A DNA stretch of 64,000 nucleotides from Fluviicola sp. (GTDB taxonomy: Bacteria > Bacteroidota > Bacteroidia > Flavobacteriales_D > Crocinitomicaceae). Positions 25,249-43,574 of this stretch are shown piece after piece. The position numbers and the translations under genes were made by a program. Numbering within the stretch: the first letter of the stretch is position 1; each line of letters opens with the position of its first letter. The notes beneath the pieces are model-generated. The model worked only from the letters and a program-made list of their open reading frames with translations, was not told where the DNA came from and ran no database searches. The DNA is taken from positions 1 to 64,000 of the forward strand of contig NVXU02000016.1 in NCBI GenBank assembly GCA_002734065.2. Direction: 5' to 3'.

Positions 25249-25548
25249 TAGACTCATTCGCTTTGCTCATTGTTAGATACGGAAGCAAGCTTCCTTTAGA
25301 CCGCTTCGCTTCGCTCTCTGTTAGACACGCCTTCGGCTCTTAGACTCGCTTTTCTTTAAAATTTTAATTGTTGCTTTTCTTTCTCAGTTTTGTAAAAGTG
25401 AACAATCAAAATAATGATTACTCTCCTCGAAGCAAGATTAAGTCTAAAAGCCGAAGGCGTGTCTAAGAATGAATTCGCGTAGCGAATGAATGTATCTAAA
25501 AAGTTCGTTTGCGAACGCATCTAACAATGAGCAAAGCGAATGAGTCTA
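25249..25548. repeat. modular inverted-arm element, copy 1
   Basis: The outer arms, 25249-25278 and 25519-25548, are perfect 30-bp inverted copies. Inner arms 25321-25346 and 25441-25466 match at 25 of 26 positions. Between them lie modules of about 10-27 bases, each bounded by TTAGA (left) or TCTAA (right); examples are ACGCCTTCGGCTC, CGCTTCGCTTCGCTCTCTG and GTTCGTTTGCGAACGC. A 94-bp AT-rich core (25347-25440) contains GAACAATCAAAATAATGATT and CTCGAAGCAAGAT. It lies between divergent ilvE and recQ. The rest of the spacer (25549-25611) holds only a TTACTTTCG -7-like box for recQ. Confidence 0.85.
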
Positions 25549-25611
25549 TACGAAAACGAACGATTAGTCTCCAATAAGTTTTTTGCTTACTTTCGTGATT
25601 CAGATTAAGAA

Positions 25612-27489
25612 TTGGAGAAATCACAGGAAATATTAAAACAATATTGGGGCTACTCATCTTTTCGCCCGATGCAAGAAGAAATTGTTGACAGTGTCATCTA
25701 TGGACACGATACGCTTGCTATTTTGCCAACAGGCGGAGGAAAATCGATCTGTTTTCAAGTGCCGGGAATTGCTCTGGAAGGACTGACCATCGTTGTTTCA
25801 CCACTTATCGCCTTGATGGAGGATCAAGTAAACAACCTTCAATCCAGGGGAATAAACGCAGGACTCATTGTCAGTTCTATGAGTTACCGCGAAATCGATA
25901 TTACACTTGATAATGCGCGATTCGGCAATATGAAATTTCTTTACACTTCTCCCGAACGACTAAAAAGCGACCTCTTCATTGAGCGTTGCAAAGCCATGAA
26001 AGTCGGACTGATAGTGATTGACGAAGCACACTGTATTTCTGAATGGGGACATGATTTTCGTCCTGCTTATCGAGACATTGCTCAATTAAGAACCTTGCAC
26101 CCAAGCGTTCCGTTTATTGCTGTTACTGCTTCTGCGACAAAACGCGTGCAGGATGACATCGTTGAACTTTTAGAGCTTAAAAAGCCAAATTTATTCATCG
26201 GAAATCTAGAACGGAAGAATATTTCGTATCAGGTGAGACATACGGAGAATAAATTGCAGAAAATCATTGATCACTGCCAAGAGAATTCTGCCGTTACAGG
26301 CATTATTTACTGTCAGACGAGAAGAAGTGTAAAATTCGTTGTGACGCAACTTCGGGCCTTGAATATCAACGCTGGTTTTTACCACGGAGGATTGAAGCCG
26401 GAAGATAGAAAATACATGCTTGAACACTGGATGCAAGGCAAAATTAAAGTAATGGTTGCCACCAATGCTTTTGGTATGGGAATCGATAAACCAGACGTTC
26501 GATTTGTACTACACTATGAAATTCCTGCCAATTTGGAAAGTTACTACCAAGAAGCTGGTCGCGCTGGCAGAGACGAAAAGGAAGCCGTTGCCATTGCTTT
26601 TTGGGAGCAGAAAGACATCGACCTGATGAAGCAACAATTGCAGATGAAATATCCGTCTATCGAACGGGTGAAAATCATCTACAATAGTCTTTGCAACTTC
26701 TTGAAAGTCGCAATTGGCGCTGGAAACGGAGAGTCCTATGATTTTGATATGCAGCTATTCAATCAATCTTTTTCTGTGCCAATTTCTGAGACATTTTACG
26801 CGCTAAAATTACTACAGCTCAATGAAACTTTGAATTTTTCTGAGAATAATTTTCATGCTACTCGTTTAAAAATCGCCATTGGAAATTCTGCTCTCTACAA
26901 GTTCCAGGTTGGTTATCCATCTATCAATGAGTTGGTTTTGACATTGACCAGAAGTTATCCTGGAATTTTTGACCGTTTTATCAACATCAATGAGAGTGAA
27001 ATTGCAAAACGCTTGAAAATAAGTCGTGCTGGGTTGACGAAGCAGCTAAAACATTTGGAACAATACGGAGTGATTGACATCACTTTTCAATCTTCATTGC
27101 CGAGAATTACTTTTCTAACAGAGCGTTTTCCAGAAGACTACCTTGACATTAAGAATGAAATTTATTTAAACAGAAAAAAGATTGAAGAGGATAAATTAGC
27201 GGCTATAATTCATTTCGTAACAGGTTCTGACTGCCGATCTAGCGCAATTAGCGCCTACTTTGATTCTACATCAGAAGATTGTGGTAAATGTGATGTCTGT
27301 CTTGAAAAATTAAAGAGCGACAAGAATATTCACGAAATTGTCGTGTTAATTCCCAAGCTTCTCCCAGCAAGGAAAGAAGAATTGGCGCTTAAAATCAACG
27401 TTTCGGAGGACCTTGTTGAACAGTCTTTACGCGCATTAATTCTCGAAGAAAAAATTATAGAAAACGACGGACTTTTCTCTAATTCTTAA
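25612..27489 (+). CDS. recQ: ATP-dependent DNA helicase RecQ
   Basis: RecQ unwinds DNA 3' to 5' in recombination and replication-fork repair. The 625-residue protein has the RecQ motif 0 (YWGYSSFRPMQEEIV), Walker A LPTGGGKSICFQVP (about 37-50), the DEAH box VIDEAHCISEWGHDFRP, motif VI in YYQEAGRAGRDEKEA, an RQC/winged-helix part and a zinc-binding cluster SEDCGKCDVC (about 557-566). It lacks a HRDC domain, as usual for the short type. The start is TTG at 25612; no ATG is near, and the family N-terminus begins here. Its 3' end overlaps the next gene by 11 bases. Confidence 0.94.
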   Translation: MEKSQEILKQYWGYSSFRPMQEEIVDSVIYGHDTLAILPTGGGKSICFQVPGIALEGLTIVVSPLIALMEDQVNNLQSRGINAGLIVSSMSYREIDITLDNARFGNMKFLYTSPERLKSDLFIERCKAMKVGLIVIDEAHCISEWGHDFRPAYRDIAQLRTLHPSVPFIAVTASATKRVQDDIVELLELKKPNLFIGNLERKNISYQVRHTENKLQKIIDHCQENSAVTGIIYCQTRRSVKFVVTQLRALNINAGFYHGGLKPEDRKYMLEHWMQGKIKVMVATNAFGMGIDKPDVRFVLHYEIPANLESYYQEAGRAGRDEKEAVAIAFWEQKDIDLMKQQLQMKYPSIERVKIIYNSLCNFLKVAIGAGNGESYDFDMQLFNQSFSVPISETFYALKLLQLNETLNFSENNFHATRLKIAIGNSALYKFQVGYPSINELVLTLTRSYPGIFDRFININESEIAKRLKISRAGLTKQLKHLEQYGVIDITFQSSLPRITFLTERFPEDYLDIKNEIYLNRKKIEEDKLAAIIHFVTGSDCRSSAISAYFDSTSEDCGKCDVCLEKLKSDKNIHEIVVLIPKLLPARKEELALKINVSEDLVEQSLRALILEEKIIENDGLFSNS

Positions 27490-28279
27490 TCATTTCCTTT
27501 AATTCATGCACTTCTTTTTGCAAATTCTGCAATGATTTTGACAATCCGTTGTCGTCTAATTTCAATTCTGGCAATTCTGGGGAAATATAATTGACGAATT
27601 TCCACATTTCGATGATGTCATTAGCATGTACAAGATAAGGGGAATAAAATGTATTGGTAGAGCAAAGTTGAAACGACTGCTCCGAATCGAGCAGATTGTG
27701 CACTACTTTAAAAACAATGCCATCGTCTTTCGTTACGACGATGCAAGGCGTTCCGTCACGAATTGACATCCAGTTTTGGACAAATTCTCCGACAACAAAG
27801 GAACCATGAACAACAGGCGGCATCGAATCTCCTTTAATCGGGAAGGTTCTGTATTTCCTATCGCGCGATAGAAATGGCAAGTGAAAAGTTGGCAATACTT
27901 TCAAATAATCCGGGTCGGCATAACCAGCCGTATAGCCCGCACTTGCCTTCACGGGAACTAATTCTATCAATTCTTCATTGTTTTCATCGACCATAGACGT
28001 TAAAATGCGCAATTTTGTCCCTTTCACGTCAGAATAGACACCTTTATCAATTTTCTCCCAATCCGAGTCTTTGAATTTCGAAAAATCTTTGCGAATTAAA
28101 TCATCCACGGATACTTTGTAGAAATCACTAAACAAAACCAAACTTTCGATGTTCGGTTGTGCAACTTCGTTCTCATAACCAGAATATGAACTACGCGTCA
28201 ACCCAAGCTCTTGAGCCACTTCTTCTTGAGAAAGCTTCTTTCTCTTTCTTAGTAATTTTAGGTTCCCTCCTACTTCCAT
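27479..28279 (-). CDS. XRE-family regulator with LexA-like S24 domain
   Basis: The 266-residue protein has an N-terminal helix-turn-helix (about 5-60, with RKKLSQEEVAQELGLTRSSY) and a C-terminal S24 peptidase fold (about 120-230). The catalytic Ser is in FPIKGDSMPPVVHGSFV (about 151-167) and the Lys in IVFKVVHNL. A possible Ala-Gly cleavage site lies in KASAGYTAGYADP (about 110-122), as in LexA/CI-type repressors. It is convergent with recQ and overlaps it by 11 bases. The signal and targets are unknown; a role in DNA damage is inference. Confidence 0.88.
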   Translation of the reverse strand: MEVGGNLKLLRKRKKLSQEEVAQELGLTRSSYSGYENEVAQPNIESLVLFSDFYKVSVDDLIRKDFSKFKDSDWEKIDKGVYSDVKGTKLRILTSMVDENNEELIELVPVKASAGYTAGYADPDYLKVLPTFHLPFLSRDRKYRTFPIKGDSMPPVVHGSFVVGEFVQNWMSIRDGTPCIVVTKDDGIVFKVVHNLLDSEQSFQLCSTNTFYSPYLVHANDIIEMWKFVNYISPELPELKLDDNGLSKSLQNLQKEVHELKEMIKN

Positions 28280-28351
28280 TCTTAAATTTTAATCAATTAT
28301 TGGTGGAAAATTAATCAAAATAATGGAATTGTGCAAGTTTTTGATTAAATT

Positions 28352-29221
28352 TTAATCACGAAAGACGATTTCGCATCCTCTCATCCTTGACAGGACGGCA
28401 ATGTACTTCGCTCCAAAAAAGATAATTTGCGAAGAATAATAGACCCAAACAAGGATGACGAGCATTGCTCCAGCCACTCCTCCACTTGCTCCAAAAAAGA
28501 AATTCGTCAGGTAGTATTTAATGATTAATTGCCCGAAATAAAGTAGAATACTAGTCAATAAACCACCTCTAAAAGCATTTCTCCATTCTACATGCCCATC
28601 GTGCAAGTATTTAAAAATAAAACTGAATACCAGCATATTTGTAATGATTGGGACGCCGTGACGAATGAGTTTTGAGACAACAGAATGAAGTACATCAATA
28701 CTTTCAAAAAGTTTGTGCGCCAATGACAAAAAAAGAGGTTCTGCAAAATAAAGCAGAATAATAAACAAGGTTATTCCTATAATAAATCCCAAAGAAATCA
28801 ATCTTGACAGAAGAGAGCGAACAATCTTTTTCTTACGAGCAATTTTACTTTTTTTAATGTTATAAAACACATTTAAACTTCCTTTTAAAGAGTTAAAAAT
28901 CACTGTACAAGAGAACATTAACGCAAGAATACCAAAAGTTTCCATTAAAACACTTCCGCTTAAAAAGTCAATCTCTCCTAAAAAGCTTAAAATTCCACTG
29001 GGATCTTCCAAGCCTACATTCTCTTTAAGCATCTTTCCGATGGCATCAATTACCTTCTCTTCTCCGACAAAGCGACCGACATAAGTTACCGTTAGATACA
29101 ATATAGGAACGAGGGCAAGCATGGCATAATAAGCCAAAGCCGCACCGTGCAATAGTGATTTCTCTTGAAAAAATTCCAAAAAAGTCGTTTTAGTCAGTTC
29201 TTTTCGTTCTTGCCAAGTCAT
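28352..29221 (-). CDS. YihY/BrkB-family inner membrane protein
   Basis: The 289-residue protein has about six transmembrane helices and the family landmarks GAALAYYAMLALVPILYL (about 26-43), WRNAFRGGLLTSILLYFGQ and GASGGVAGAMLVILVWVYYSSQI. Members are broadly conserved in bacteria but have no agreed biochemical role; the old RNase BN name is wrong. Its start overlaps the stop of the upstream gene (ATGA), so the two are coupled. Confidence 0.9.
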   Translation of the reverse strand: MTWQERKELTKTTFLEFFQEKSLLHGAALAYYAMLALVPILYLTVTYVGRFVGEEKVIDAIGKMLKENVGLEDPSGILSFLGEIDFLSGSVLMETFGILALMFSCTVIFNSLKGSLNVFYNIKKSKIARKKKIVRSLLSRLISLGFIIGITLFIILLYFAEPLFLSLAHKLFESIDVLHSVVSKLIRHGVPIITNMLVFSFIFKYLHDGHVEWRNAFRGGLLTSILLYFGQLIIKYYLTNFFFGASGGVAGAMLVILVWVYYSSQIIFFGAKYIAVLSRMRGCEIVFRD

Positions 29222-29643
29222 TCTCCAATCAATTCTTTAGGAAATTCTTGCGTCGCAATAAAAATTCCAGGTACGGGATTAGACATCGGCTCAAAGTCTT
29301 TGATGTAAATTTTCAAGTCAAAATCATCCCCATTCTTAGACAATTCACAAGACTCCATGATTGATTCTGAACAGCCAACTGTTACTGGAGTGTCTTCTGT
29401 AAGAACATCAAACAGTCGCATATCGGCAACATCGTAAGAGAATGCTTTGCCATCGGCGAGACTCCCTTGCAAGGGATAATTTGCTTTCTCTTGCTCCACA
29501 ATATCCAAAACATTGTTGATGAGTAATTCATCTTCCCATTCATATTTGCGGTTCATATCCGACTCTTCACCGTTGTGATTCGCTTCGGCATGTTCTTCGG
29601 AAAAATGCTCGTTCAATAAATAAAAATGGATGCTACACTTCAT
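29218..29643 (-). CDS. hypothetical protein, coupled to the BrkB-family gene
   Basis: I do not recognise this 141-residue acidic protein. It has no signal peptide or membrane segment. It has a His/Glu-rich segment (NEHFSEEHAEANHNGEESD) and an alpha/beta pattern after it. The frame is open upstream to 29715, but that part runs into the inverted-arm element, and a TACTTTTATCC -7-like box lies before the ATG at 29643. It overlaps the membrane protein gene by four bases, so it may act with it. Confidence 0.6.
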   Translation of the reverse strand: MKCSIHFYLLNEHFSEEHAEANHNGEESDMNRKYEWEDELLINNVLDIVEQEKANYPLQGSLADGKAFSYDVADMRLFDVLTEDTPVTVGCSESIMESCELSKNGDDFDLKIYIKDFEPMSNPVPGIFIATQEFPKELIGE

Positions 29644-29661
29644 AATTTTTACTTTGGAGGA

Positions 29662-30032
29662 TAAAAGTAGTGATTTTAGAGCGTTCGCTGCGTTTTTAGA
29701 CACATTCATTCGCACATTTCGACTTCGCTCGATGACCGCGCGAATTCATTCTTAGACCGCTACGCTTTTAGAAACGCTCGCTTCGCTCTCTGTTAGACAC
29801 GCTCCTTCGTCGCTCTTAGACTTATTCCTCGGTGAAATTTTAGTTTTTGTTGTTTTGATTTTTAGATCTTCTAAAGTTGAGCAACCAAAGCCACAACTAA
29901 TCTTCTCGAAGTAAATCTAAGTCTAAGAGCGACGAAGGAGCGTGTCTAAAGGACGAAGTTCGTATCTAAAAGATCGCTTGCGAACGAATCTAAGAGCAAG
30001 CTTCGCTTGCGTGTCTAAAATCACTACTTTTA
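29662..30032. repeat. modular inverted-arm element, copy 2
   Basis: The outer arms 29662-29680 and 30014-30032 are perfect 19-bp inverted copies, and the inner arms 29793-29824 and 29918-29949 are perfect 32-bp inverted copies. The TTAGA/TCTAA-bounded modules differ in part from copy 1: ACGCTCCTTCGTCGCTC replaces the CCTTCGGC module. The core (29825-29917) aligns with the other copies (AAATTTTAGTT, GAGCAACCAAAG, TCTCGAAGTAAAT). The outer arms carry ACTACTTTTA, so each of the two divergent genes has the same -7-like box at its own edge. This element fills the whole divergent spacer. Confidence 0.85.
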
Positions 30033-30048
30033 CCCCTTTTCAAAGAAA

Positions 30049-31377
30049 ATGTTAGACTACAGTTACAAATCGATATTAAAAATGGCAGTGCCTTTGATGG
30101 CATCTACGTTTATTCAATCGGTTGTACTCATCACTGATTCTGCCTTTTTAAGTCGATACGACACCATTGCTTTTGATGCTGTTGGCAACGGAGGATTGAT
30201 TTACATCACTTTATTTATGACCTTAATCGGCATGAGTGATGGTGCACAAATTGTGATGGCTAGAAGAATTGGAGAAGGAAGATCATCCATGCTTTCGAAA
30301 ATTTTTGGGTCCGCACTCTTTAATAATTTGTTGATTAGCATTGTTCTATTCTCCATCATTTCTTGGGTCATTCCGGACATGCTAAAGTCCTACTCATTGA
30401 ATGCAGAAGTTGCTCAAGGACAGGTTGATTACCTTAATATTAGAGGTTACGGACTGATATTCGCTTTTCTTTCTATCTCCATCAATGCCTATTTTATGGC
30501 AATTGGCAAAACGAAGTTCGTTATGATAGGCGCTTTGTTTGTGGCAAGTTCTAATATTCTTCTGGACTATGCATTAATCAGTGGCAACTTCGGTTTTGAA
30601 GCCATGGGAATTGAAGGAGCTGCCCTTGCCTCTACTTTTGCCGATGGAATTGGTGCTTTATTCTTGGGAATAGCGCTTTATTATTCTTCAGAACAGCGAA
30701 AACACGAATTATTGAAGAATATTTCCATCAGTAAAGAAAGTCTGCTCAACTTGTTTAAAATTAGTTCTCCGATAATGCTGCAAGGATTGGTTGCGCTTAC
30801 AACTTGGACTGTTTTCTTTACATGGATAGAACAAATCGGCACGTATGAATTGACCGTGTCACAAAACATTCGTTCCTTGTATTTTCTCGCTTTCGTTCCC
30901 GTTTGGGGCTTTGGAGCAACGACCAAGACCTACGTCAGCCATTTTATTGGTAAAAAGGACTATGATGCTGTCAAAATCATCATTATGCGTGTACAATTGT
31001 TGTCAATTCTCTTTCTTTTTCTATTCTTTCACGGTGCACTTTTCTACCCTGAGCAAATGATAGGAGTTATCAATCCCAACGAAGAATTCATGGCAGACAG
31101 TGTTGCCATTCTCCGATTTGTTTCTGGGTCAGTGATTATTTATTCTGTCGGAAGTGTCTATTTCCAAGCGATTAATGGCACGGGCAATACACGCATCAAC
31201 TTCTACATCGAAATCGTTTCCGTTTTTATCTATCTCATTGCGGCATTCTTATTAATTAAAGTCTATGTCCTCGATATCTATTGGATTTGGACCGTAGAAT
31301 ACATTTACTTTATTACCTTGGGATTATTATCATTCTTATACCTTCGTTTTTTTAACTGGAGAAAGAAAGAAATTTAA
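30049..31377 (+). CDS. MATE-family efflux transporter
   Basis: The 442-residue inner membrane protein has 12 predicted helices in two similar halves, as in MATE exporters that expel cationic drugs or metabolites with Na+ or H+. Landmarks are VPLMASTFIQSVVLITDSAFL (shown in part: ASTFIQSVVLITDSAF) near the N-terminus and the second-half start SSPIMLQGLVALTTWTVFF-like segment (about 240). It is of the DinF/NorM-like general class; the substrate is unknown. fmt follows after eight bases. Confidence 0.87.
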   Translation: MLDYSYKSILKMAVPLMASTFIQSVVLITDSAFLSRYDTIAFDAVGNGGLIYITLFMTLIGMSDGAQIVMARRIGEGRSSMLSKIFGSALFNNLLISIVLFSIISWVIPDMLKSYSLNAEVAQGQVDYLNIRGYGLIFAFLSISINAYFMAIGKTKFVMIGALFVASSNILLDYALISGNFGFEAMGIEGAALASTFADGIGALFLGIALYYSSEQRKHELLKNISISKESLLNLFKISSPIMLQGLVALTTWTVFFTWIEQIGTYELTVSQNIRSLYFLAFVPVWGFGATTKTYVSHFIGKKDYDAVKIIIMRVQLLSILFLFLFFHGALFYPEQMIGVINPNEEFMADSVAILRFVSGSVIIYSVGSVYFQAINGTGNTRINFYIEIVSVFIYLIAAFLLIKVYVLDIYWIWTVEYIYFITLGLLSFLYLRFFNWRKKEI

Positions 31378-31385
31378 ACAAACGC

Positions 31386-32345
31386 ATGGAGAATTTAAGC
31401 ATCGTATTTATGGGAACTCCCAGTTTCGCAACGACTATTTTAAAGAAGCTGCTGAACGAGGGAGTTGATGTAAAGGCAGTCATCACTGCACCAGATAGGA
31501 AATCAGGTCGAGGGCAGAAAGTAAGCAAGAGCGATGTTAAGATCTATGCCGAAGAACAGGACTTAAAAATTCTGCAACCTAGCAATTTAAAAGGCGAAGA
31601 ATTTATTGCAAAGCTCCACAGTATAGATGCAGACTTGTTTGTAGTGGTTGCATTTAGAATGCTTCCTGAAGTTATTTGGGCGATGCCTCCAAAAGGAACC
31701 ATCAATTTACACGGTTCTTTGTTGCCGAACTACCGTGGAGCTGCCCCTATTAACTGGGCAATAATTAACGGAGAAAAGGAAACGGGAGTTACCTCATTTT
31801 TCATCGAAAAGGAGATCGATACAGGGATGATTATCGAGCAAGAAAGAATTAGCATTTCAGAGAATGAAAGTGCTGGAGAATTGCACGACAGAATGATGCA
31901 TCTTGGCGCTGATGTTATCTATTCTACTTTGCAAAAAATTGCTTCTGATAATCTCTCGCCAATTAATCAAAAAGAGCTTATGAACACTGGGATGCAACCT
32001 GCACCAAAAATCTTTAAACAGGATTGCAAAATAGACTTCTCCAAAGACGTTCAAACGGTGCATAATTTCTGCCGAGGACTGTCGCCATACCCTGCTTCTT
32101 GGTGTACCTTATATAATAAGGACAAAAATGAAGCGAAAACCTACAAGATATTCTCTACAGAAAAAACAGAATCAGAGACTACTGGTAGCAAAGAATTGAA
32201 AGCAACAAAAGAAGGGCTTCTTTTTCCATGTTCGGACAACTACCTTTTGGTCAAAGAAATTCAAGCAGAAGGAAAACGGAAAATGCACTTCAAAGACTTT
32301 TTGGCCGGTAATTCTATTGAAAGCCTTTCTATTGTTAATGAATAG
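31386..32345 (+). CDS. fmt: methionyl-tRNA formyltransferase
   Basis: Fmt formylates initiator Met-tRNA using 10-formyl-THF. The 319-residue protein has the N-terminal VFMGTPSFATTIL, NLHGSLLPNYRGAAPINWAI (about 109-128; the catalytic Asn and His region), FFIEKEIDTGMII and a C-terminal OB-like domain (about 210-319). It is separated by eight bases from the MATE gene and lies before the HU gene, an order often seen in Bacteroidota (recQ region-fmt-HU). Confidence 0.95.
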   Translation: MENLSIVFMGTPSFATTILKKLLNEGVDVKAVITAPDRKSGRGQKVSKSDVKIYAEEQDLKILQPSNLKGEEFIAKLHSIDADLFVVVAFRMLPEVIWAMPPKGTINLHGSLLPNYRGAAPINWAIINGEKETGVTSFFIEKEIDTGMIIEQERISISENESAGELHDRMMHLGADVIYSTLQKIASDNLSPINQKELMNTGMQPAPKIFKQDCKIDFSKDVQTVHNFCRGLSPYPASWCTLYNKDKNEAKTYKIFSTEKTESETTGSKELKATKEGLLFPCSDNYLLVKEIQAEGKRKMHFKDFLAGNSIESLSIVNE

Positions 32346-32410
32346 AAGTATTCTTATTCAGCGACAGAATTCTTCTATTAGTCGAAAACACCTTTAAAAA
32401 CGGGCTTTTT

Positions 32411-32450
32411 GGGGGTACTTATCAACAAAAGGGGGTACTTTTCCACAAAA
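32411..32450 (+). repeat. tandem 20-bp direct repeat with DnaA-box-like ends
   Basis: Two adjacent 20-bp units (32411-32430 and 32431-32450) match at 18 of 20 positions. Each starts GGGGGTACTT and ends in a 9-mer one mismatch from the E. coli DnaA box TTATCCACA: TTATCAACA and TTTTCCACA. They lie about 50 bases upstream of the HU -7 box. They could be a regulator's operator or a DnaA site. Confidence 0.55.
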
Positions 32451-32496
32451 TATGCACTTTTTTTGCTAAAACACTTGCACAGTAAGGAATTCCGTA

Positions 32497-32504
32497 TATA
32501 TTTG
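32497..32504 (+). promoter_or_regulatory. -7 box TATATTTG for the HU gene
   Basis: TATATTTG is an exact consensus match, with a TTG (32475-32477) about 20 bases upstream as a possible -33 element. It lies 41 bases before the ATG at 32546, giving an AT-rich leader. Confidence 0.75.
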
Positions 32505-32545
32505 TAGGGAATTAATTATTTTAATAAACTAAAATTAAACAAACT

Positions 32546-32818
32546 ATGAACAAAGCAGAATTAATTGATGCAATGGCATCAGACGCTGGATTGTCAAAAG
32601 CAGATGCTAAGAGAGCATTGGACGGATTTATCAACGCTACAGGTCAAGCATTGAAAAAAGGTGAAAGAATCGCATTAGTAGGATTCGGATCTTTTTCAGT
32701 ATCTAACCGTGCTGCAAGAGTTGGTCGTAACCCACAAACGGGTAAAGAAATTCAAATCGCTGCTAAAAACGTTGTACGTTTTAAAGCTGGATCTGATTTG
32801 GCTAAGAAGGTTAACTAG
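32546..32818 (+). CDS. HU-family DNA-binding protein
   Basis: HU bends and compacts DNA as a dimer. The 90-residue protein is of normal length, with the N-terminal MNKAELIDAMASDAGLSKAD helix, LVGFGSFSVSNRAARVGRNP (beta-arm; P63-like intercalating Pro in RNPQTG) and KFKAGSDLAKKVN-like C-terminus. It has its own promoter and a following terminator, so it is transcribed alone and probably strongly. Confidence 0.96.
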   Translation: MNKAELIDAMASDAGLSKADAKRALDGFINATGQALKKGERIALVGFGSFSVSNRAARVGRNPQTGKEIQIAAKNVVRFKAGSDLAKKVN

Positions 32819-32837
32819 TATAACCTCAAAAAAAATT

Positions 32838-32866
32838 AAGGGAATCGAAAGGTTCCCTTTTTTTTA
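32838..32866 (+). terminator. terminator of the HU gene
   Basis: AAGGGAA and TTCCCTT (32838-32844 and 32853-32859) form a stem with an 8-base loop, followed by a run of T to about 32865. It lies 20 bases after the HU stop. Confidence 0.75.
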
Positions 32867-32882
32867 TGCTTAATTTTATGTC

Positions 32883-33563
32883 ATGACTACAGACGAGAAA
32901 GTTTTAGCAGAATTCTACAACATCATTACTGAAAGTAAGCAAGATAAATACGATCAAATAGCCGCTGACAGAACAAAGTACCTCACAGTTGTTATGGAGA
33001 GTATTTCCAAAGAACATAATTCTTCCGCTGTTTTAAGAACCTGCGATTGTTTTGGAATACAAGATCTACACACCATAGAAAAAGGGCAGAAAATACACGA
33101 ACCTATGCGCGACATCGCTCTAGGTGCTGGAAACTGGGTAGATTTACACACCTATGACACTGGCGAGAATCCTACTGTTGATTGTTTGCAAGAATTAAAA
33201 AGCAAAGGCTATAAAATTGTTGCCACTACTCCACATACAGATATTGACATCAGTGACATTGCCGTTGATCAACCCATCGCTTTGGTTTTCGGGACAGAAA
33301 AGACAGGTATTTCAAAAGAGGTTGAAGAAATGGCTGACGAATTGGTGAAAATTCCCATGTATGGTTTTACCGAGAGTTTTAACATCAGTGTTTCTGCCGC
33401 CATTGCTTTGAATATTCTCCGCAACAAATTAGAGCATTCTGACGAAGACTGGAAACTACCTCACAATGAACAGGTTAAGCTGAAGATTGAGTGGTGCACA
33501 AGAATCATTCGTGATGGTGGAAAAGTGGAGGATGAGATTCGGAGGAGGATAGAGTCAATGTAG
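32883..33563 (+). CDS. TrmH-family tRNA (guanosine-2'-O-)-methyltransferase
   Basis: The 226-residue SPOUT methyltransferase should methylate a ribose in tRNA, by analogy G18. It has the knot motifs NSSAVLRTCDCFGIQDLH (motif 1; N-x-x-A-x-x-R), IALVFGTEKTGIS (motif 2) and IPMYGFTESFNISVSAAIAL (motif 3, with the catalytic N). The C-terminal extension suits TrmH rather than RlmB. The exact target is inferred. It lies between HU and bTHX. Confidence 0.88.
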   Translation: MTTDEKVLAEFYNIITESKQDKYDQIAADRTKYLTVVMESISKEHNSSAVLRTCDCFGIQDLHTIEKGQKIHEPMRDIALGAGNWVDLHTYDTGENPTVDCLQELKSKGYKIVATTPHTDIDISDIAVDQPIALVFGTEKTGISKEVEEMADELVKIPMYGFTESFNISVSAAIALNILRNKLEHSDEDWKLPHNEQVKLKIEWCTRIIRDGGKVEDEIRRRIESM

Positions 33564-35109: not shown

Positions 35110-35114
35110 AATTA

Positions 35115-35167: not shown

Positions 35168-36124
35168 ATGAAAGTATTAGCAAACGATGGCGTTTCTGCC
35201 TCAGGAATTGAAGCATTGGAAAATGCAGGTTACACAGTAATCACAGACAAAGTAGAACAAGAAAATTTAGTTGATTACATCAACTCGGAGAACATTGAGG
35301 TTCTTTTGGTAAGAAGTGCAACAACTGCTCGCAAAGAGTTAATTGATGCCTGCCCGAACTTGAAATTAATCGGTCGTGGCGGCGTTGGAATGGACAATAT
35401 TGATGTGCAATACGCAAGAGATATTGGAAGAACAGTCATCAATACGCCGGGTGCATCTTCTCAGTCTGTTGCAGAATTGGTCATGGGACATCTTTTTGCA
35501 ATTTCTCGTTCTCTCAATGATTCTTACAAGAACATGGAGAATGGTGATTTTAAAACACTGAAGAAAAAATACGGAAAAGGCGTTGAATTACGTGGGAAAA
35601 ACATCACCATCATTGGTTTTGGTAGAATCGGGCAAAACTTGGCTAAATATGCCATCGGATGCGGAATGAATGTAACAGCTGTTGATTTATACACCGGGCC
35701 AACTTCTCTAGAAATAGAATTGGGAAATAATGCCTCGGTTACCGTTCAAATTAACCCTGTGAAAACTGTTATCGAAGGAATTAAAGACGCTGATTACATC
35801 TCTTTGCACGTTCCTAAACAAGACGACGGTTCTGCCGTGATTGGTACTGCAGAATTTGATGCAATGAAAGGAAACGTAAGACTAGTCAACGCTGCGAGAG
35901 GTGGTGTGATAGACGAAGATGCGCTGCTTGTTGCTTTGGAGAATGGGAAAGTTGCTGCTTGTGCGTTGGATGTTTATGAAAATGAACCCAACCCAAGAAA
36001 AGATTTATTATGCCATCCAAACATTGCTTGCACGCCACACGTTGGAGCTGCAACGGGAGAAGCGCAAGATCGTATCGGAACAGAATTAGCAGAGACAATT
36101 ATTGCTAAATTTGGCGTTCAGTAA
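35168..36124 (+). CDS. serA: D-3-phosphoglycerate dehydrogenase
   Basis: SerA oxidises 3-phosphoglycerate with NAD+, the first step of serine synthesis. The 318-residue short form has GRGGVGMDNIDV, the Rossmann motif ITIIGFGRIGQNLAKYA (about 140-156), the catalytic Arg in VNAARGGVIDEDALL (about 239-253), and Glu and His in the CALDVYENEP and CTPHVGAATGEA segments. It lacks the C-terminal ACT domain, so it is not expected to be serine-inhibited in the usual way. It is followed by DUF1015 after 13 bases. Confidence 0.94.
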   Translation: MKVLANDGVSASGIEALENAGYTVITDKVEQENLVDYINSENIEVLLVRSATTARKELIDACPNLKLIGRGGVGMDNIDVQYARDIGRTVINTPGASSQSVAELVMGHLFAISRSLNDSYKNMENGDFKTLKKKYGKGVELRGKNITIIGFGRIGQNLAKYAIGCGMNVTAVDLYTGPTSLEIELGNNASVTVQINPVKTVIEGIKDADYISLHVPKQDDGSAVIGTAEFDAMKGNVRLVNAARGGVIDEDALLVALENGKVAACALDVYENEPNPRKDLLCHPNIACTPHVGAATGEAQDRIGTELAETIIAKFGVQ

Positions 36125-36137
36125 TTGAACAAATTCT

Positions 36138-37373
36138 ATGACTAAAATAAGTTCTTTTAAGGCAATTCGCCCTACTAGAGACAAGGTGCATTTAGTGGCT
36201 GCTCTGCCTTATTATGCGTACAAGAAAAATGTGCTCGAAGCAATAATGCAAGCCAATCCGTACTCATTCTTGCATATAATTAACCCAGAATTTGGACCGA
36301 TAGAGACAAAACCTAATTCTGAAGAACGGTTTCAGTTAATTCATGATGCCTATGAGCGATTCAGAACGGAAGGCACGTTTATTCAAGAAGAAAAGGCTAG
36401 AATTTACCTTTACCGACAAACTAAAGGAACGCACGAATACCTCGGAATTATTGCTGGAGCAAGCGTTGAAGAATACAACAAAGGACAAATAAAAGTCCAC
36501 GAAGCAACCATCACAGGTCGTGAAGATATGTTCACCAACTACCTCGACATTGTTGGTTATAATGCAGAACCTGTCCTTCTTACCTATTCTGACAAAGACC
36601 ATAAAATTGATGCTATTCTTGATCATAAAGTAGCAGAACGACCAGAATACGAGTTTTCTACTATTGACAGAATGAAGCACGAATTGTGGGTTCTCTCTGA
36701 CGAGGAAGAAAATGCCATCAAAGCATCCTTCGAGAAATTGAGAAAGATATATATTGCAGATGGTCATCACAGAATAGCTTCTTCAGCAGGATTAAAAAGA
36801 AAAAGGAAGGAATTGGGATTAAAAAGATATCCGAATGAGGACAATTTCTTGGCATTTTTTATCAATGAGAACAGGTTGCACATTTTAGAATTCAATCGCC
36901 TAGTCAGGACATTAAACGGGCATAGCAAAGAACAGTTTTTAGAATTACTCGCTATTAATTTTGAAATAAAAACACTTGCAAACGCTTCAAAGCCTTGTAA
37001 ACACAATGCATTCACGATGTGCATTGATTCTGACTGGTATCAGTTAAGTTGTAAATCGAAAATCATTGACCAGAGTCATCCGGTTCGTTCTTTGGATGCA
37101 GAAATTCTCACGCAGCACATCCTCGATCCTATTCTTGGTATTAAAGATTTGAAAAACGACGACAACATTGATTTCATCAGTGGCGACCGTCCAATTGAAG
37201 GATTTGAAGAAGAAATGCACAACAGAGGATGCAAAATTGGCTTTGTCCTCTACCCTATCAGCATTGACGAAATTAAGCGTGTGGCTGACAATGAAATGAT
37301 TATGCCACCAAAATCAACTTGGATAGAACCTAAGTTGCGCAGCGGTCTCACCATTTACAACCTCAACGAATGA
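36138..37373 (+). CDS. DUF1015 family protein
   Basis: The 411-residue protein belongs to DUF1015, whose members often sit next to serA and serC, as here. Landmarks are FKAIRPTRDKVHLVAALPYY (start), IYLYRQTKGTHEYLGI, TGREDMFTNYLDIVGYN-like context (GREDMFTNYLDIVGYN) and IADGHHRIASS (about 209-219), in which GHHR looks like an active or binding motif. The family is proposed to act as a kinase in serine metabolism in some archaea (serine kinase SerK is different), so the reaction is unknown here. The stop overlaps the next start (ATGA). Confidence 0.85.
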   Translation: MTKISSFKAIRPTRDKVHLVAALPYYAYKKNVLEAIMQANPYSFLHIINPEFGPIETKPNSEERFQLIHDAYERFRTEGTFIQEEKARIYLYRQTKGTHEYLGIIAGASVEEYNKGQIKVHEATITGREDMFTNYLDIVGYNAEPVLLTYSDKDHKIDAILDHKVAERPEYEFSTIDRMKHELWVLSDEEENAIKASFEKLRKIYIADGHHRIASSAGLKRKRKELGLKRYPNEDNFLAFFINENRLHILEFNRLVRTLNGHSKEQFLELLAINFEIKTLANASKPCKHNAFTMCIDSDWYQLSCKSKIIDQSHPVRSLDAEILTQHILDPILGIKDLKNDDNIDFISGDRPIEGFEEEMHNRGCKIGFVLYPISIDEIKRVADNEMIMPPKSTWIEPKLRSGLTIYNLNE

Positions 37374-38029
37374 TTAAGGAGAATCTAAATACTGTTAGCA
37401 CAACGATCCCGTCAGATGTCACCTTGGTTGCCGTTTCTAAAACAAAACCCCATGAGGATATTCTAGAAGCCTACGAAGCTGGACAACGCATTTTTGGAGA
37501 GAATAAAGTGCAAGAACTCGTTGACAAACACGAATCACTTCCAAAAGACATTGAATGGCACATGATTGGTCATCTACAAAGCAATAAAGTGAAGAATATT
37601 GCTCCGTTTGTCTCGTTAATTCATGCCGTTGATAGTTTCAAGTTGCTCAAGGAAATCAACAAGCAAGCAAAAAAAAATGACAGAACGATAGACTGTTTAT
37701 TGCAGTTTCACATCGCACAAGAGGACTCAAAATTTGGACTTTCTTTCGTTGAAGCAAAAGAAATCTTAGAATCCAATGAGTTTGTTGAATTACAAAACAT
37801 TTCCATCTTCGGAATTATGGGCATGGCAACATTCACCCAAAATGAAGAACAAATTCGAGAAGAATTTCAGGCTTTGGAGAATTATTTCAATGTGCTGAAA
37901 AGTCATTATTTTAAGTTTAATAATCACTTCCAACATATCTCAATGGGCATGAGTGGCGATTATCAGATTGCTATTGAAGAAGGCAGTACAATGGTACGCG
38001 TTGGCAGTTTAATTTTTGGTTCAAGATGA
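37370..38029 (+). CDS. YggS-family PLP homeostasis protein
   Basis: The 219-residue protein is the PLP-binding YggS/PROSC type, which keeps pyridoxal phosphate available and has no known catalytic reaction. It has VAVSKTKPHEDI (with the PLP lysine at about 24), FGENKVQELVDKH, WHMIGHLQSNKVK (about 62-74) and SMGMSGDYQIAIEEGSTMVR near the C-terminus (about 190). It overlaps both neighbours by four bases, so the serC-serA-DUF1015-yggS-DUF1684 run is coupled. Confidence 0.93.
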   Translation: MIKENLNTVSTTIPSDVTLVAVSKTKPHEDILEAYEAGQRIFGENKVQELVDKHESLPKDIEWHMIGHLQSNKVKNIAPFVSLIHAVDSFKLLKEINKQAKKNDRTIDCLLQFHIAQEDSKFGLSFVEAKEILESNEFVELQNISIFGIMGMATFTQNEEQIREEFQALENYFNVLKSHYFKFNNHFQHISMGMSGDYQIAIEEGSTMVRVGSLIFGSR

Positions 38030-38625
38030 AATATTTAACTATCTGTTTATCAATTATTTCAATCAACACGTTCTCTTTCTCTCAGAAAACAAAAAACGAA
38101 GTTGATTCATTGAGAATTGAGCATCTAAAAGAATTGAAAAGTCCCGAAGCAAAGGTTTTAGATGAAGAAGAAATTGCTGATTTCAAAGGATTAGACTACT
38201 ATGATTTTGATGCAACTTATCAGCTTGTTGCAACTTTCAAAAAAGACAAGGGCAAGAAGTTTGAGATGCCAACTTCTACAGAAAGAAAACCCGTTTACCG
38301 AAGATATGGTTACGTTTATTTTGAGTTGGCGGGACAGAAATGCACCTTGGAAGTCTATCAGAATTTAGAATTAAAGAAGGATAAGAAATTTAAAGATTAC
38401 CTGTTCATTCCGTTTAGAGATAAAACCTCGACCTTTGCAACTTATGGAGGCGGAAGGTACCTCGATGCGAAGATTACTAAAGGCAAAACGATACTGCTAG
38501 ACTTCAACTTGGCGTACAATCCTTATTGTGCCTATTCTTACCGTTATTCTTGTCCAATACCACCTGTTGTAAACACTTTGAAGGTGAAAATTGAAGCTGG
38601 AGAGAAAACACCAATTGGGCATTGA
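38026..38625 (+). CDS. secreted DUF1684 protein
   Basis: The 199-residue protein has a signal peptide (about 1-19, ending NTFSFSQ) and a DUF1684 domain to the end. Family landmarks are GLDYYDFDATYQL, CTLEVYQNLELKKDK, YLFIPFRDKTS, TYGGGRYLD and FNLAYNPYCAYSYRYSCPIP (about 165-184). DUF1684 has no defined activity. It overlaps yggS by four bases and is the last gene of the serine-region run. Confidence 0.9.
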   Translation: MKYLTICLSIISINTFSFSQKTKNEVDSLRIEHLKELKSPEAKVLDEEEIADFKGLDYYDFDATYQLVATFKKDKGKKFEMPTSTERKPVYRRYGYVYFELAGQKCTLEVYQNLELKKDKKFKDYLFIPFRDKTSTFATYGGGRYLDAKITKGKTILLDFNLAYNPYCAYSYRYSCPIPPVVNTLKVKIEAGEKTPIGH

Positions 38626-38696
38626 GAATAGATACACCTTAAATCTGTACCGTTTCCTCTTTTTTCACTTATATACTCAAAGCACATAGATTTTAG

Positions 38697-38704
38697 TATA
38701 TTTG
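38697..38704 (+). promoter_or_regulatory. -7 box TATATTTG for the outer membrane protein gene
   Basis: TATATTTG is an exact match that ends 20 bases before the ATG at 38725, separating this gene from the DUF1684 operon. Confidence 0.7.
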
Positions 38705-38724
38705 AACTTACATCCCAATTAACT

Positions 38725-39417
38725 ATGAAAAGAATACTGTTCTTACTTTCTTTCGTTTTCTCCCTGAGCTATTCTTATGCTCAGCCCTATAAAACAATTA
38801 AAATTTTCAAGCCTTACAAATGGATGGTTGGTGTAAGTTGGACAGCTATCGACGATGACGGAAGACAATTTGAAGGACTTTTTGACTATGCCAATTGGAA
38901 CTACATGCTCTTCCCTACCAGAATCACTCTGGATCGTTATTTCCGCTATGGATGGAGCGTTGAGGCCGTTGCAAGTTATTCTCAGTACCTTCCAGGCAAG
39001 TTAATTAACGATTCAACCAACATCACAAGCACCTTCTTTTCCTTTGACGTGAATGGCAAGTACAGCTTCTACCAAAAATATGCGCCAAGAGCAAGATGGT
39101 TAGACCCCTATTTTACTTTTGGAGTTGGTTATACATACAGAGACCGTGCAAATGTTTCGCCACACGTCCCCACTGTTAACCTCGGTTTTGGTATTAATTT
39201 CTGGATTATTAAATCGCTCGGCATTCAGTTGCATTCCAACGCTAAAATTGGAGTTTTCCCAGGTTTTTGGGTGACCCACACCAATTATCTGCAACATTCT
39301 GCCGGCATCGTTTTTAGATGGGGAGAAGGCAAAAAAAATAGCAACGGTGATTTCGGTAGAAAGAAGAATAAATGGGCGCATAAGAAGACGAAGTACAAGA
39401 AGAACAAAGGCCATTAA
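38725..39417 (+). CDS. outer membrane beta-barrel protein with basic tail
   Basis: The 230-residue protein has a signal peptide (about 1-19, ending LSYSYAQ) and a small barrel of about eight amphipathic strands, with the OmpA/OprF-like stretch [18 protein letters not shown] and the strand [15 protein letters not shown]. It ends with a strongly basic, Lys/Asn-rich tail ([19 protein letters not shown]) of about 30 residues after the last strand, which could bind LPS or peptidoglycan. I cannot assign a transport role. Confidence 0.8.
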
Positions 39418-39432
39418 ACCCTGCACACAACT

Positions 39433-42210
39433 TTGAAACAAAAATACATCGAGATAAAAGGTGCAAGAATGCACAACCTCAAAAATATTGATGTAAAAAT
39501 TCCGCATGGCAAATTCACAGTGATTACAGGGCTTTCAGGTTCTGGAAAATCATCTTTGGCTTTTGATACACTCTATGCAGAAGGTCAAAGAAGGTACATT
39601 GAAAGTCTATCCTCTTACGCGCGGCAATTCTTGGGAAAGCTCAACAAACCCGAAGCTGATTATATCAAAGGCATTGCTCCTGCCATTGCAATAGAGCAAA
39701 AAGTAACGACCAACAATCCTCGCTCAACTGTCGGGACGAGTACTGAAATTTATGATTACCTCAAAGTGCTCTTCTCCAGAATTGGTAAGACCATCTCCCC
39801 TATTTCTGGCAAGGAAGTGAAGAAAGACAATGTAGCTGATGTCATTGACTTCTTTAGAAAGAAAGAGAAAGGTTCACGGCAAATAATTTTGGCACCACTC
39901 AAAGGATGGAAGAAATATGGCAGCGACAGGCAATTAGACATTCTCAAAAAACAAGGATACGTCCGTTTGTTTTTAAATGAAGAATTCATCCTCATAGATG
40001 ATGTTTTAAAGGACATTCCGAAGAATATTGCAAAAGCAATGCTCGTTATTGACAGAATTGCCATTGATTTTGCCGATGAGGACAATATTTCTCGTTATGG
40101 AGATTCCATTTCACTGGCTTTTGCCGAAGGCGATGGAGCATGTCTTGTTTATTCTGTTGCAGAGAAGAAAAGCAAATCCTTTTCCAATCGTTTTGAGTTG
40201 GACGGTATTGAATTTCAAGAACCGAATGAACATTTTTTCACTTTCAACAATCCTTTTGGTGCTTGTAAAAAGTGTGAAGGTTTCGGAATGGTAATTGGAA
40301 TTGACCCCAACCTCGTTATTCCAAATAAAAACCTCAGTGTTTTTGAAGGTGCTGTGATGCCGTGGAAGGGAGAAAAAATGAGTCGTTACAAAGATAAATT
40401 CATCGACAAGGCAGACAATTTTCCCATACATCGACCGATCAATGAGCTGACAGACGAAGAACTTGATTTACTTTGGAACGGAGCAAAAGGCATCAAGGGA
40501 ATCAATGACTTTTTTAAGTTCGTAGAAAGTAAATCTTACAAGATTCAATACCGCGTAATGCTATCTCGCTACCGTGGGAAAACAGGTTGTAGTGATTGCA
40601 AAGGAACAAGATTGAGAAAAGATGCAAGCTTCGTAAAGATAGGACAGCACTCGATCATGGACGTCGTATTGCTTTCCATCGAAGACGCTTTATCATTCTT
40701 TGAGAATTTAAAACCCAACAAGCACGATTCACAAATCACCAAACGCATTCTGCCTGAAATTACCAGCCGTTTGCAATTCTTAAAAGAGGTTGGCTTGGGT
40801 TATTTAAGCTTAAACAGAGCATCTGGTTCTCTTTCCGGGGGAGAATCTCAACGGATTCACCTCGCCACTTCGATTGGCAGTAGCCTCGTCGGTGCGATGT
40901 ACATTTTAGACGAACCTTCTATTGGTTTGCATCCTCGCGACACCGAAAAATTAATCACTGTCCTTAAATCACTGCGCGACATTGGAAACACAGTCATCGT
41001 GGTTGAACATGAAGAGGACATGATGCAGGCTGCCGATGAAATTTTAGACATTGGTCCGATGGCCGGTGCTTATGGTGGAGAAATAGTATTTCAAGGCGTT
41101 CATAAGAATTTAATCAAGGCGAAAGACAGTCTAACGGCAAAATATTTGACGGGAGAGGAAAAAATCCCCGTTCCTGATAAGCGCAGAAAGTCAAAGAATA
41201 AATTAAGCATCAAAGGAGCGAGACAGCACAACCTCCAAAACGTTAATGTTGACTTTCCTTTGCACAATTTAGTCTGCGTTACCGGCGTAAGTGGCTCTGG
41301 GAAATCAACCTTGGTCAAAGACATTCTTCTGCCAGCAGTTAAGAAAGAATTGGGCATTTATGGCGATAAACAGGGAGAATTCAAGTCATTCTCTGGTGAT
41401 ATGCAACACATTAAGGCGGTAGAATTTGTGAATCAGAATCCCATCGGGAAATCTTCCCGAAGTAACCCGATTACTTATGTGAAAGCCTTTGATGACATCC
41501 GAGATTTGTATTCTCGTTTGCCTTTGTCTAAAGTTCGAGCTTACAAGCCGGGGTTTTTTAGTTTCAATGTTGATGGTGGCCGTTGCGAAGTATGCGAAGG
41601 AGAAGGAGAAATCACTGTTGGAATGCAGTTCATGGCAGATGTTCACCTCACCTGCGAGCAATGTAAGGGTTCTCGTTACAAGGCAGAAACCTTAGAAATA
41701 GAATACCGTGGAAAATCCATTGCTGACTTGTTGCAAATGGATATTGCCAGTGCTTTAGAATTCTTCGGCGAAATCACTGATAGGCTTGAAAGCAAGATTA
41801 CCGCTAAGATTGCGCCCTTAGCAAAGGTTGGCTTGGGTTATTTAAAGTTGGGACAACCTTCCAGCACACTGAGTGGCGGTGAGGCGCAAAGAATCAAATT
41901 GGCATCCTTTTTAGCGAAAGGTTCGGCGAGTCCTTCTACCCTATTTATTTTTGACGAGCCCACAACTGGCTTGCATTTTCACGATGTCAGAAAATTGCTC
42001 ATTGCTTTTGATGAATTGATTAATTCTGGTCATTCTATCATTGTCATTGAGCACAATTTAGACGTGATTAAATACGCCGATTGGATCATAGACATTGGTC
42101 CTGAAGGAGGAAACAAAGGTGGAGAGATTGTATTTACAGGAACACCTGAAGAATGCGTGAAAAGCAAGAAAAGTTTTACAGGGGAGTATTTGAAGGAGAA
42201 ACTGAATTAG
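39433..42210 (+). CDS. uvrA: excinuclease ABC subunit A
   Basis: UvrA finds bulky DNA lesions in nucleotide excision repair and loads UvrB. The 925-residue protein has two ABC modules: Walker [16 protein letters not shown] (about 33-47) and [15 protein letters not shown] (about 620), signatures [11 protein letters not shown] and [12 protein letters not shown], and zinc sites [16 protein letters not shown] and [17 protein letters not shown]. The start is a TTG at 39433; the conserved IEIKGAR segment before the internal ATG at 39469 shows that the TTG is needed. The 3' end (42164-42200) is repeated at 43192-43228. Confidence 0.95.
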
Positions 42211-42325
42211 TGAGTGGTTGGCTCTGAGCGTTTCGCCTTTAGCTAGGTAGCGGTAAAAATATTACTTTTCTCTTTGATTAAAAATAAAAAGGTATATTTA
42301 GCTTGAAATAAAAATTTAAACTTTC

Positions 42326-43150
42326 ATGAAAAATGTACTATTAATTATTTTTACAATCATTTGTACGACAGCTATAGGTCAAGTATTCTATAAGTCAGCT
42401 GGTAAAAAGGACTTCAAATTATTAATGGATAACGGTGTCACCTATATCAAAACTGGCGACCCTGTCAAAGATGGTTATTACATAGATGCAATAGAAAAGT
42501 ACTGGAAAGTTACAAAAGTTAGAATTTTCGATCCATTAGATGAAGATAATGAGGAAAAGTTATCCAATGATGATATTGTTTTTTACAACGCCTCTTTATC
42601 TGGGTCAGGCGATATTTTCTGCTTGATAAAATTGGACTTTTTGATAAAAAAGACAGTCTCAAAATATGCAACAATAGGCTATATTACTATAAATGGTTTT
42701 AGCCAAACATCAAAAAATTTATCTGAAACTCTTTTTATAGATCAACTTATCATTGGCTTAAACAGTACTGTTGATGTTATTAGTGAGGACAATATAAAAG
42801 GAGGCGGAGTAGGTTTATATTCTAAAATATTTGCTAAAACACTCCCAAAAGTGAAGAGTTTAAAGGATAAAACTCTTTTAATCATAGGAAATACTAAAAA
42901 CTATATCAGCACTAAAGCGTTAGAAAAAAACGGTATTAAGTATAAAGAAATTAGTATCGAAGAGTACGAAGAACTTTATCAAGATGACTTAACAGGTTAT
43001 TGTTTATTCTACTTTGCGTATAACACATATACAGAAGTTGCTATATATGACCTTGAAAATAATGAGCTAATTTACACGAGACATTTTGCTTCGGCAAAAT
43101 TAAAATTGACCTTAGTGGATATCGCAAAAATTGCACGCCAATGGAAATAA
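42326..43150 (+). CDS. exported protein of unknown function
   Basis: The 274-residue protein has a signal peptide (about 1-19, ending TTAIGQ) and no other feature I can name. It is a mixed alpha/beta protein with a possible Rossmann-like stretch (KTLLIIGNTKNYISTKALEK, about 190). It has a -7-like TATATTTA box in its 115-base leader. The gene lies between uvrA and a second copy of the uvrA 3' end, so it may be a later insertion. It is more AT-rich than uvrA. Confidence 0.65.
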   Translation: MKNVLLIIFTIICTTAIGQVFYKSAGKKDFKLLMDNGVTYIKTGDPVKDGYYIDAIEKYWKVTKVRIFDPLDEDNEEKLSNDDIVFYNASLSGSGDIFCLIKLDFLIKKTVSKYATIGYITINGFSQTSKNLSETLFIDQLIIGLNSTVDVISEDNIKGGGVGLYSKIFAKTLPKVKSLKDKTLLIIGNTKNYISTKALEKNGIKYKEISIEEYEELYQDDLTGYCLFYFAYNTYTEVAIYDLENNELIYTRHFASAKLKLTLVDIAKIARQWK

Positions 43151-43191
43151 AACAAAGCAATGTGCGAAAGACCTGCCTACTGGACAAACAT

Positions 43192-43228
43192 GCAAGAAGA
43201 GTTTTACGGGGGAGTATTTGAAGGAGAA
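43192..43228 (+). repeat. duplicated 3' end of uvrA
   Basis: This 37-base stretch matches the uvrA 3' end at 42164-42200 at 35 of 37 positions. In the uvrA frame it would encode [12 protein letters not shown], followed by VS and a stop instead of LN and a stop. It lies 41 bases after the stop of the orphan gene, so the orphan gene is bracketed by direct repeats about 1.03 kb apart. Confidence 0.85.
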
Positions 43229-43234
43229 GGTTAG

Positions 43235-43574
43235 TTAGACTGTTCGCTTTGCTCACGTTTAGATACGTTCGCTTCGCTCTCTGTTAGACACATTCATTCG
43301 CTACGCGAATTCATTCTTAGACACGCCTTCGGCTCTTAGACTTGATCTTGCTTCGACGAGATTAATCATTATTTTGATTGTTCATTTCTGGAAGAGTGAT
43401 AAATCGAAGTAACAACTAATATTTTACCAAGAATCAAGTCTAAGAGCCGAAGGCGTGTCTAACAGAGAGCGAAGCGAACGTATCTAAAAATTCGCTCGCG
43501 AATGAGTCTAAAAGCGCAGCGGTCTAAGAGCGACGAAGGAGCGTATCTAAACGTGAGCGAAGCGAACAGTCTAA
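43235..43574. repeat. modular inverted-arm element, copy 3
   Basis: The outer arms 43235-43267 and 43542-43574 match at 32 of 33 positions in inverted orientation, and the inner arms 43317-43346 and 43433-43462 are perfect 30-bp inverted copies. Modules bounded by TTAGA/TCTAA recur as inverted pairs: TGTTCGCTTTGCTCACGT, ACGTTCGCTTCGCTCTCTG and ACGCCTTCGGCTC. The right arm has two extra modules (AAGCGCAGCG, GAGCGACGAAGGAGCGT), the latter also in copy 2. The core (43347-43432) on the minus strand aligns with copies 1 and 2. The last TCTAA supplies the stop codon of the antiporter gene. Confidence 0.87.

Follow-up and report, generated by a model that had tools for sequence, protein, structure and literature searches.

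What are the long inverted arrays that interrupt a 64,000-nucleotide stretch of a Fluviicola sp. genome (Bacteroidota; NCBI GenBank assembly GCA_002734065.2, contig NVXU02000016.1, positions 1 to 64,000; hereafter the window), and how did they reach their present sites? The original prediction had described three such loci as one family, with arms of short modules spaced by TTAGA to the left and by TCTAA to the right of a shared core, and had considered both a mobile, transposase-dependent element and a structural RNA. The module plan was confirmed at all three loci. We propose, with about an even chance of being right, that the elements are non-autonomous, non-coding mobile elements that work as folded single-stranded DNA, in the manner of repetitive extragenic palindromes (REP) and bacterial interspersed mosaic elements (BIME).

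Each element follows the plan (TTAGA+module)n – core – (module'+TCTAA)n, in which the core itself runs TTAGAC…GTCTAA. Measured with these two ends included, the cores are 108, 111 and 108 bp long at loci 1, 2 and 3 (105 bp at locus 2 with an earlier TCTAA counted as its end), slightly more than the 86–94 bp given before. They do align across the loci, in a single register once the core of locus 3 is reversed, although the motif CTCGAAG, which had been placed in all three, is replaced by GTCGAAG in the third. The window also holds a fourth array, which has one arm and no core. The features are listed below, with bit scores from a covariance model of the core (R1).

25248-25549: element 1; left modules 25248-25339, core 25340-25447 (plus strand), right modules 25448-25549
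25340-25447, plus strand: core 1, 108 bp, an imperfect palindrome; 94.5 bits on the plus strand, 39.3 on the minus strand
29661-30032: element 2; modules 29676-29815, core 29816-29926, modules 29927-30018
29661-29675 and 30019-30032: outermost inverted host flank of element 2
29714-29739: second small repeat (ACATTTCGACTTCGCTCGATGACCGC) in the loop of an element 2 module
29816-29926, plus strand: core 2, 111 bp; 79.3 bits on the plus strand, 48.8 on the minus strand
43235-43574: element 3; modules 43235-43335, core 43336-43443 (minus strand), modules 43444-43574
43336-43443, minus strand: core 3, 108 bp, in opposite orientation to cores 1 and 2; 107.2 bits on the minus strand, 51.7 on the plus strand
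49233-49330: core-less, one-armed module array between rpsO (S15) and pnp

The modules are mini-hairpins drawn from a small vocabulary. Two of the loop types concerned, the tetraloop motifs d(cGNNAg) and d(gCNNGc), are reportedly named in the title of a 2002 paper. We gathered modules by their TTAGA/TCTAA foot, so that units with other feet would escape, and scored hairpins with at least two Watson-Crick pairs, tandem G.A pairs being allowed. On the strand that reads towards TCTAA, 91 of the 130 distinct modules (a set that includes some TTAGA pairs due to chance and longer forms of a module already counted) carry a cGNAg, cGNNAg or gCNNGc loop. The other strand has 20, of which 18 are of the self-symmetric CNNG type, and shuffles have 6.4. 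As the tandem G.A pairs had been admitted post hoc, after inspection of the modules, the test was repeated with Watson-Crick stems only, which gave 84/130 modules against 20/130 on the other strand and 6.3 in shuffles; dropping extended duplicates gave 81/112 against 19/112 and 5.1. For the GNA and GNNA classes alone, the split between the TCTAA-reading strand and the other was 72 to 2. Among perfect stems of at least three pairs with any loop of 3–5 bases, 41 of 71 hairpins fell in the favoured classes, compared with 2.7% of shuffle hairpins, and 147 of the 196 module-like instances in the loci of this genome that were examined have a favoured hairpin loop. The modules of relatives show the same polarity (19/37 against 1/37 on the other strand and 1.6 in shuffles; 18 against 0 for GNA and GNNA alone). 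Chance TTAGA pairs and extended module forms enter these last counts as well. A comparison of G.T with A.C in the module stems was too sparse to use. Extraordinary stability is reported for DNA mini-hairpins that combine a GNA or GNNA loop with two or more G-C pairs (PMC4686876).

Two further observations concern module structure. In loci L044, L047, L048, L049, L051 and L053, some arrays have, between their hairpin modules, TTAGA (or TCTAA) motifs separated by just three bases. Within modules, at 29714-29739 and in L020, L022, L023 and L024, there is a second small repeat resembling ACATTTCGACTTCGCTCGATGACC, in several cases exactly at the hairpin-loop position, as if it targeted hairpin loops.

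Folded as single-stranded DNA, the whole elements at loci 1, 2 and 3 reached −80.0, −87.9 and −107.2 kcal/mol (z −11.6, −10.1 and −18.3), and in each case none of 100 shuffles was as good. The claim of near-perfect arms within a locus held for some module pairs only. At locus 1 the outer match is 84% over 49 nt and the inner 96% over 26 nt; at locus 2 the inner is 100% over 32 nt and the outer 95% over 22 nt; and at locus 3 the matches are 100% over 34 nt, 100% over 30 nt and 94% over 36 nt. The outer match at locus 2 is indeed present, but it consists mostly of host flank just outside TTAGA/TCTAA and not of module sequence. Many middle modules, by contrast, differ between the arms, and these are able to fold on themselves instead of pairing across. 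The predicted whole fold of locus 1 has two unmatched modules facing each other as side hairpins, and in those of loci 2 and 3 single unmatched modules fold on themselves, which suggests a pair-or-fold plan as the architecture of the elements.

According to the mechanism that we propose, each module would be a mini-hairpin followed by a TCTAA foot, and arrays set head to head around the core of about 108 bp would allow an exposed strand to form one long stem, in which matching left and right modules pair across the arms and differing modules each fold on themselves. A single-strand nuclease that recognises hairpins (HUH/Y1-like) would then take the folded strand as its substrate and insert the element, after which arms and core would be remodelled by template switching, a process that can homogenise arms and invert the spacer.

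A family with a conserved core, as had been predicted, was recovered when the whole genome was searched. R1, built from 13 cores, found 18 core places (E ≤ 0.01), a lower bound since 150 of 4866 candidates were scored, and two shortened cores (40 and 60 bp) bring the number of core elements to 20. The imperfect palindromy of the core makes 14 of the 18 places match on both strands. BLAST of element 1 against the genome gave 64 matches, and one-armed or core-less arrays other than that at 49233-49330 occur elsewhere in the genome. In the core alignment the ends are the inverted repeats TTAGACTTG...CAAGTCTAA; RNAalifold on the raw alignment returned just six terminal pairs, and the structure in R1 was derived manually from a single core, on which the pair counts lean, so we claim no covariation.

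The core has a narrow distribution. At E ≤ 0.001 it was found in two of 60 genomes, namely this one and a congener (G014), and in two of 399 genomes across the order, an overlapping set in which the second was again G014; these searches used stricter filters, with 64 (60-genome set) or 9 (399-genome set) candidates scored per genome, so weak copies can escape. Through BLAST, G014 showed at least two further cores, diverged or shortened. A loose module pattern matched 19 of the 60 genomes, with 69 matches in this genome, none in its reversed control and six in G014; most other genomes were near control level, while G022, G028 and G031 have clear module arrays. The exact module TTAGACACGCCTTCGGCT was present in three contigs of the genome_contigs collection, from which this genome may be left out: one from a Bacteroidetes metagenome-assembled genome, taken as G014's, one from Nitrospira and one from Campylobacteraceae. 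A link to phages was rejected, the single viral-contig match being a chance match within coding sequence, on a contig whose open reading frames (ORFs) are microvirus-like in appearance.

Past mobility had been anticipated, and sites without the element were found at the orthologous positions of loci 1 and 2. The genes that flank locus 1 (a class IV aminotransferase and a RecQ-type helicase) are adjacent, with no element between them, in 10/10 relatives compared; 14 had been fetched, eight of the ten were aligned, and the remaining four (G010, G018, G020 and G028) were scanned for modules alone, of which there were none. The site of locus 2 is free of modules in 6/6 relatives compared, with a short gap in G031, G014, G033, G029 and G019 and a different stretch of about 1.3 kb in G016. 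For loci elsewhere in the genome, G031 lacks the second element of L022 (about 36 bp compared with 375 in this genome), the corresponding site in G014 being rearranged and hence uncounted; the interval of the first L022 element has no modules in G031 and G014, yet it is not shorter and was not counted as a clean empty site. The left gene of locus 3 was not found in the eight relatives searched. These comparisons support past mobility of the elements.

Movement could also be explained by a miniature inverted-repeat transposable element (MITE), in which the core of about 108 bp, with its ends TTAGACTTG.../...CAAGTCTAA, would be a Correia-like deletion derivative of a DDE-type insertion sequence, moved by a transposase as double-stranded DNA and joined later by modules. 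Much about the core is as such an origin would have it: its length is exactly 108 bp in 8 of the 20 copies and 105–111 bp in 16, it has terminal inverted repeats, its tree is star-like, relatives have sites without it, and the innermost module is one of two types in 17/20 left and 15/20 right arms (counted by hand), as if core and one module moved together. Insertion into one-way arrays would, however, leave the modules on both sides in the same orientation, and in the 20 core elements they are mirror-oriented; two G014 cores with modules on one side only (C25 and C197) also count against it. In the BLAST and pattern listings of this genome, a draft of 62 contigs, inspection by eye with no dedicated search showed no stretch of transposase size enclosed by two element ends, and no target-site duplication was readable. 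We consider a MITE unlikely.

The arms had been said to evolve together. Over the 20 elements, 18 in-order matches join left and right modules, compared with 11.2 ± 2.4 under permutation of the arms across loci (p=0.006), and the innermost pair matches in 9/20 where 5.4 are expected (p=0.03). Because each arm was truncated at 150 bp and only exact TTAGA was accepted, some outer modules are uncounted, such as the right-hand outer module of locus 1. The claim is partly supported: once the innermost pair is removed there are 7 matches compared with 4.5 ± 1.7 (p=0.12), and arm matching is real but moderate. That modules are swapped between loci is borne out by L015 and L023, whose nearly identical cores carry different outer modules, so module turnover is faster than core turnover.

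Traces of arm remodelling may be seen at two sites. The left flank of locus 2 is similar to its right flank read on the opposite strand, and the two flanks are less alike in relatives. This is no more than suggestive of a left flank copied from the right, and so of arm copying, as the relatives' flanks have some natural symmetry of their own. An element in G014 lies between the same genes as L019 of this genome (79% DNA identity over 2 kb), and although the flanks run parallel the cores are in opposite orientation (L019, 101.9 bits on the minus strand and 44.2 on the plus; G014, 83.8 on the plus strand and 48.2 on the minus). This would fit spacer inversion by template switching, which in yeast is described together with arm homogenisation (PMC8604942). 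The apparent flank copying, the opposite core orientation at one orthologous site and the excess of arm matching would all follow if the elements were passive palindromes, inverted arrays grown and kept by template switching during replication with no dedicated enzyme. Such a process leaves unexplained why the same core and vocabulary recur at 20 sites, both window sites that could be tested being empty in relatives. Nor does it account for the polarity of GNA and GNNA loops relative to the TCTAA foot, since template switching can turn short spacers round and should mix GNA with TNC loops. We regard passive palindromes as very improbable.

Could the hairpins act in a transcript instead? As a structural RNA, the arrays would be UCUAA-separated hairpins serving as a terminator, attenuator or mRNA stabiliser. 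Some arrays do lie on the sense strand between genes of the same direction (rpsO–pnp at 49233, L048, L049 and L054), and CUUG loops are known in RNA too. Over 14 core-less arrays, picked by hand with the mixed arrays L047 and L052 left out, the favoured strand nonetheless keeps to no set gene direction: judged against mechanically called ORFs, it runs with both neighbouring genes in 4, with neither of them in 4 and with one in 5, the last array having no upstream gene in view. The 20 core elements, which lie mostly between mechanically called ORFs, are in convergent (8), divergent (7) and tandem (5) contexts, as judged from the same ORF calls. Although the numbers are small, these counts of array strand and context disfavour a transcript-level role. 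The GNNA loops are GNYA and not GNRA in 12 of 15 modules (9 of 11 without extended duplicates), again small numbers. No Rfam family matched the elements at gathering score, the only match in the window being an S15 leader at 49696-49754, and the Bacteroidota promoter pattern TTG-N16-24-TANNTTTG was present in none of 17 cores on either strand. Loop strand, loop type and the Rfam result together disfavour the structural RNA that the original prediction had kept in view, and we think it distinctly improbable.

Three observations on the window itself may be added here. The favoured loops of the array in the rpsO–pnp gap (49233-49330) sit on the sense strand. The S15 leader, ahead of rpsO, is the S15-Flavobacteria ribosomal protein leader (Rfam RF03161). 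At about 44600-44694 there is a TTAGGATTATGAATTAT...GAAGTNGAG repeat, which likewise begins with TTAG; 29 matches to it are listed in G014, with tandem-like copies in L135 (G014:C259).

If the elements are mobile as folded single strands, which enzyme would act on them? The genome has one Y1_Tnp match, and a REP-associated tyrosine transposase (RAYT) was rejected as the partner: this sole match has no modules nearby and no conserved counterpart among the module-bearing congeners tested. No other partner gene was found either. Y1_Tnp is present in 30/60 genomes, with no clear link to modules. Upstream of the Y1 gene (L055, gene at 3843), a long palindrome around GGTCGCGACC begins at 3704 and may be that gene's own repeat; L129 of G014 has a similar centre.

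Several results weigh against a mobile element that acts as folded single-stranded DNA. There is no TTAGAC in a 3.3-kb locus around the Y1_Tnp gene and no module array in the 8-kb locus L055; in congeners, this protein has no match in G014 and shares 27% and 32% identity over parts with matches in G028 and G031, and no Y1 gene was found in the module-bearing G022. Taken singly, the six arms fold as DNA no better than shuffles (z −0.58, 0.68, 1.54, 0.21, −0.15 and 1.92), so the case for DNA hairpins rests on the loop and stem pattern and on whole-element folding. Of the 130 modules, 39 fall outside every favoured loop class, and module counts are not independent trials, since the modules share descent. 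The lack of a readable target-site duplication counts here too, with relatives' flanks too diverged to show one. Finally, a tree of the cores (19 rows; 1/16 inner branches well supported) does not join the L019 and G014 cores of the shared site, where two independent insertions may have taken place.

With more reserve, we suggest that the elements could form a new single-strand-DNA mobile repeat system, built of interchangeable mini-hairpins selected for the extraordinary stability of their DNA loops (GNA, GNNA and CNNG) and provided with a TCTAA foot, in mirror arrays around a core, whose strand would fold whatever modules it held and would be acted on by a hairpin-recognising enzyme of a non-GTAG/RAYT kind. 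A literature search over titles and the beginnings of abstracts, with most subscription papers outside its reach, found no described family with such a build. Most catalogued REP families have a GTAG or CGTC foot (PMC3733652); the present family would combine a different foot with a conserved core and with loops that match the most stable DNA mini-hairpins. It would also offer evolution-scale cases, in a bacterium, of apparent arm copying and core inversion, both of which are outcomes described in yeast genes (PMC8604942). If true, the system would serve as a natural experiment on whether selection in the intergenic repeats of bacteria takes the folding of single-stranded DNA as its very unit.

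Among known systems, Correia elements (NEMIS), ERIC and RUP are intergenic, palindromic and gene-less elements of about 100–150 bp, similar in length to the core described here; we know of none with interchangeable module arrays outside the core. Integron attC sites are recombined as folded single strands, and TTAGAC and GTCTAA resemble their boxes (GTTRRRY and RYYYAAC). In attC, however, R'' (RYYYAAC) lies upstream and R' (GTTRRRY) downstream, whereas the order is reversed around our core, and within the arms the boxes are direct repeats. Closer parallels are found among Y1 systems. Subclass 2.6 (group 5) Y1 genes, mostly from Bacteroidetes, are described with 'atypical secondary structures' that have further copies in the host genome, and class 3 has the foot CnGA, so feet other than GTAG exist (PMC6006769); compared by description only, the present genome differs in that its one Y1 gene has no module near it. 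REP and BIME are described as short intergenic hairpins with a conserved foot beside the stem and strand-specific recognition of single-stranded DNA, found singly or in mosaics with inverted copies (PMC8266576, PMC2817692, PMC3733652), and as acting in folded single-stranded form, with GTAG as the foot and a RAYT as the enzyme (PMC8266576, PMC2817692, PMC3733652, PMC6006769). In our elements the foot is TTAGA/TCTAA, not GTAG/GTGG or CGTC, each arm has several tandem units, in mirror arrangement on the two sides of a conserved core (about 108 bp), and no Y1 gene lies beside the modules; with neither a GTAG foot nor a RAYT gene at their side, the elements are not claimed here as members of REP. 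The polarity of the loops supports REP-like strand-specific folding as single-stranded DNA, single-arm folding energies do not, and, as in the REP/BIME systems of TnpA_REP/RAYT (REPtrons), short intergenic palindromes are present in many copies in their own genome.

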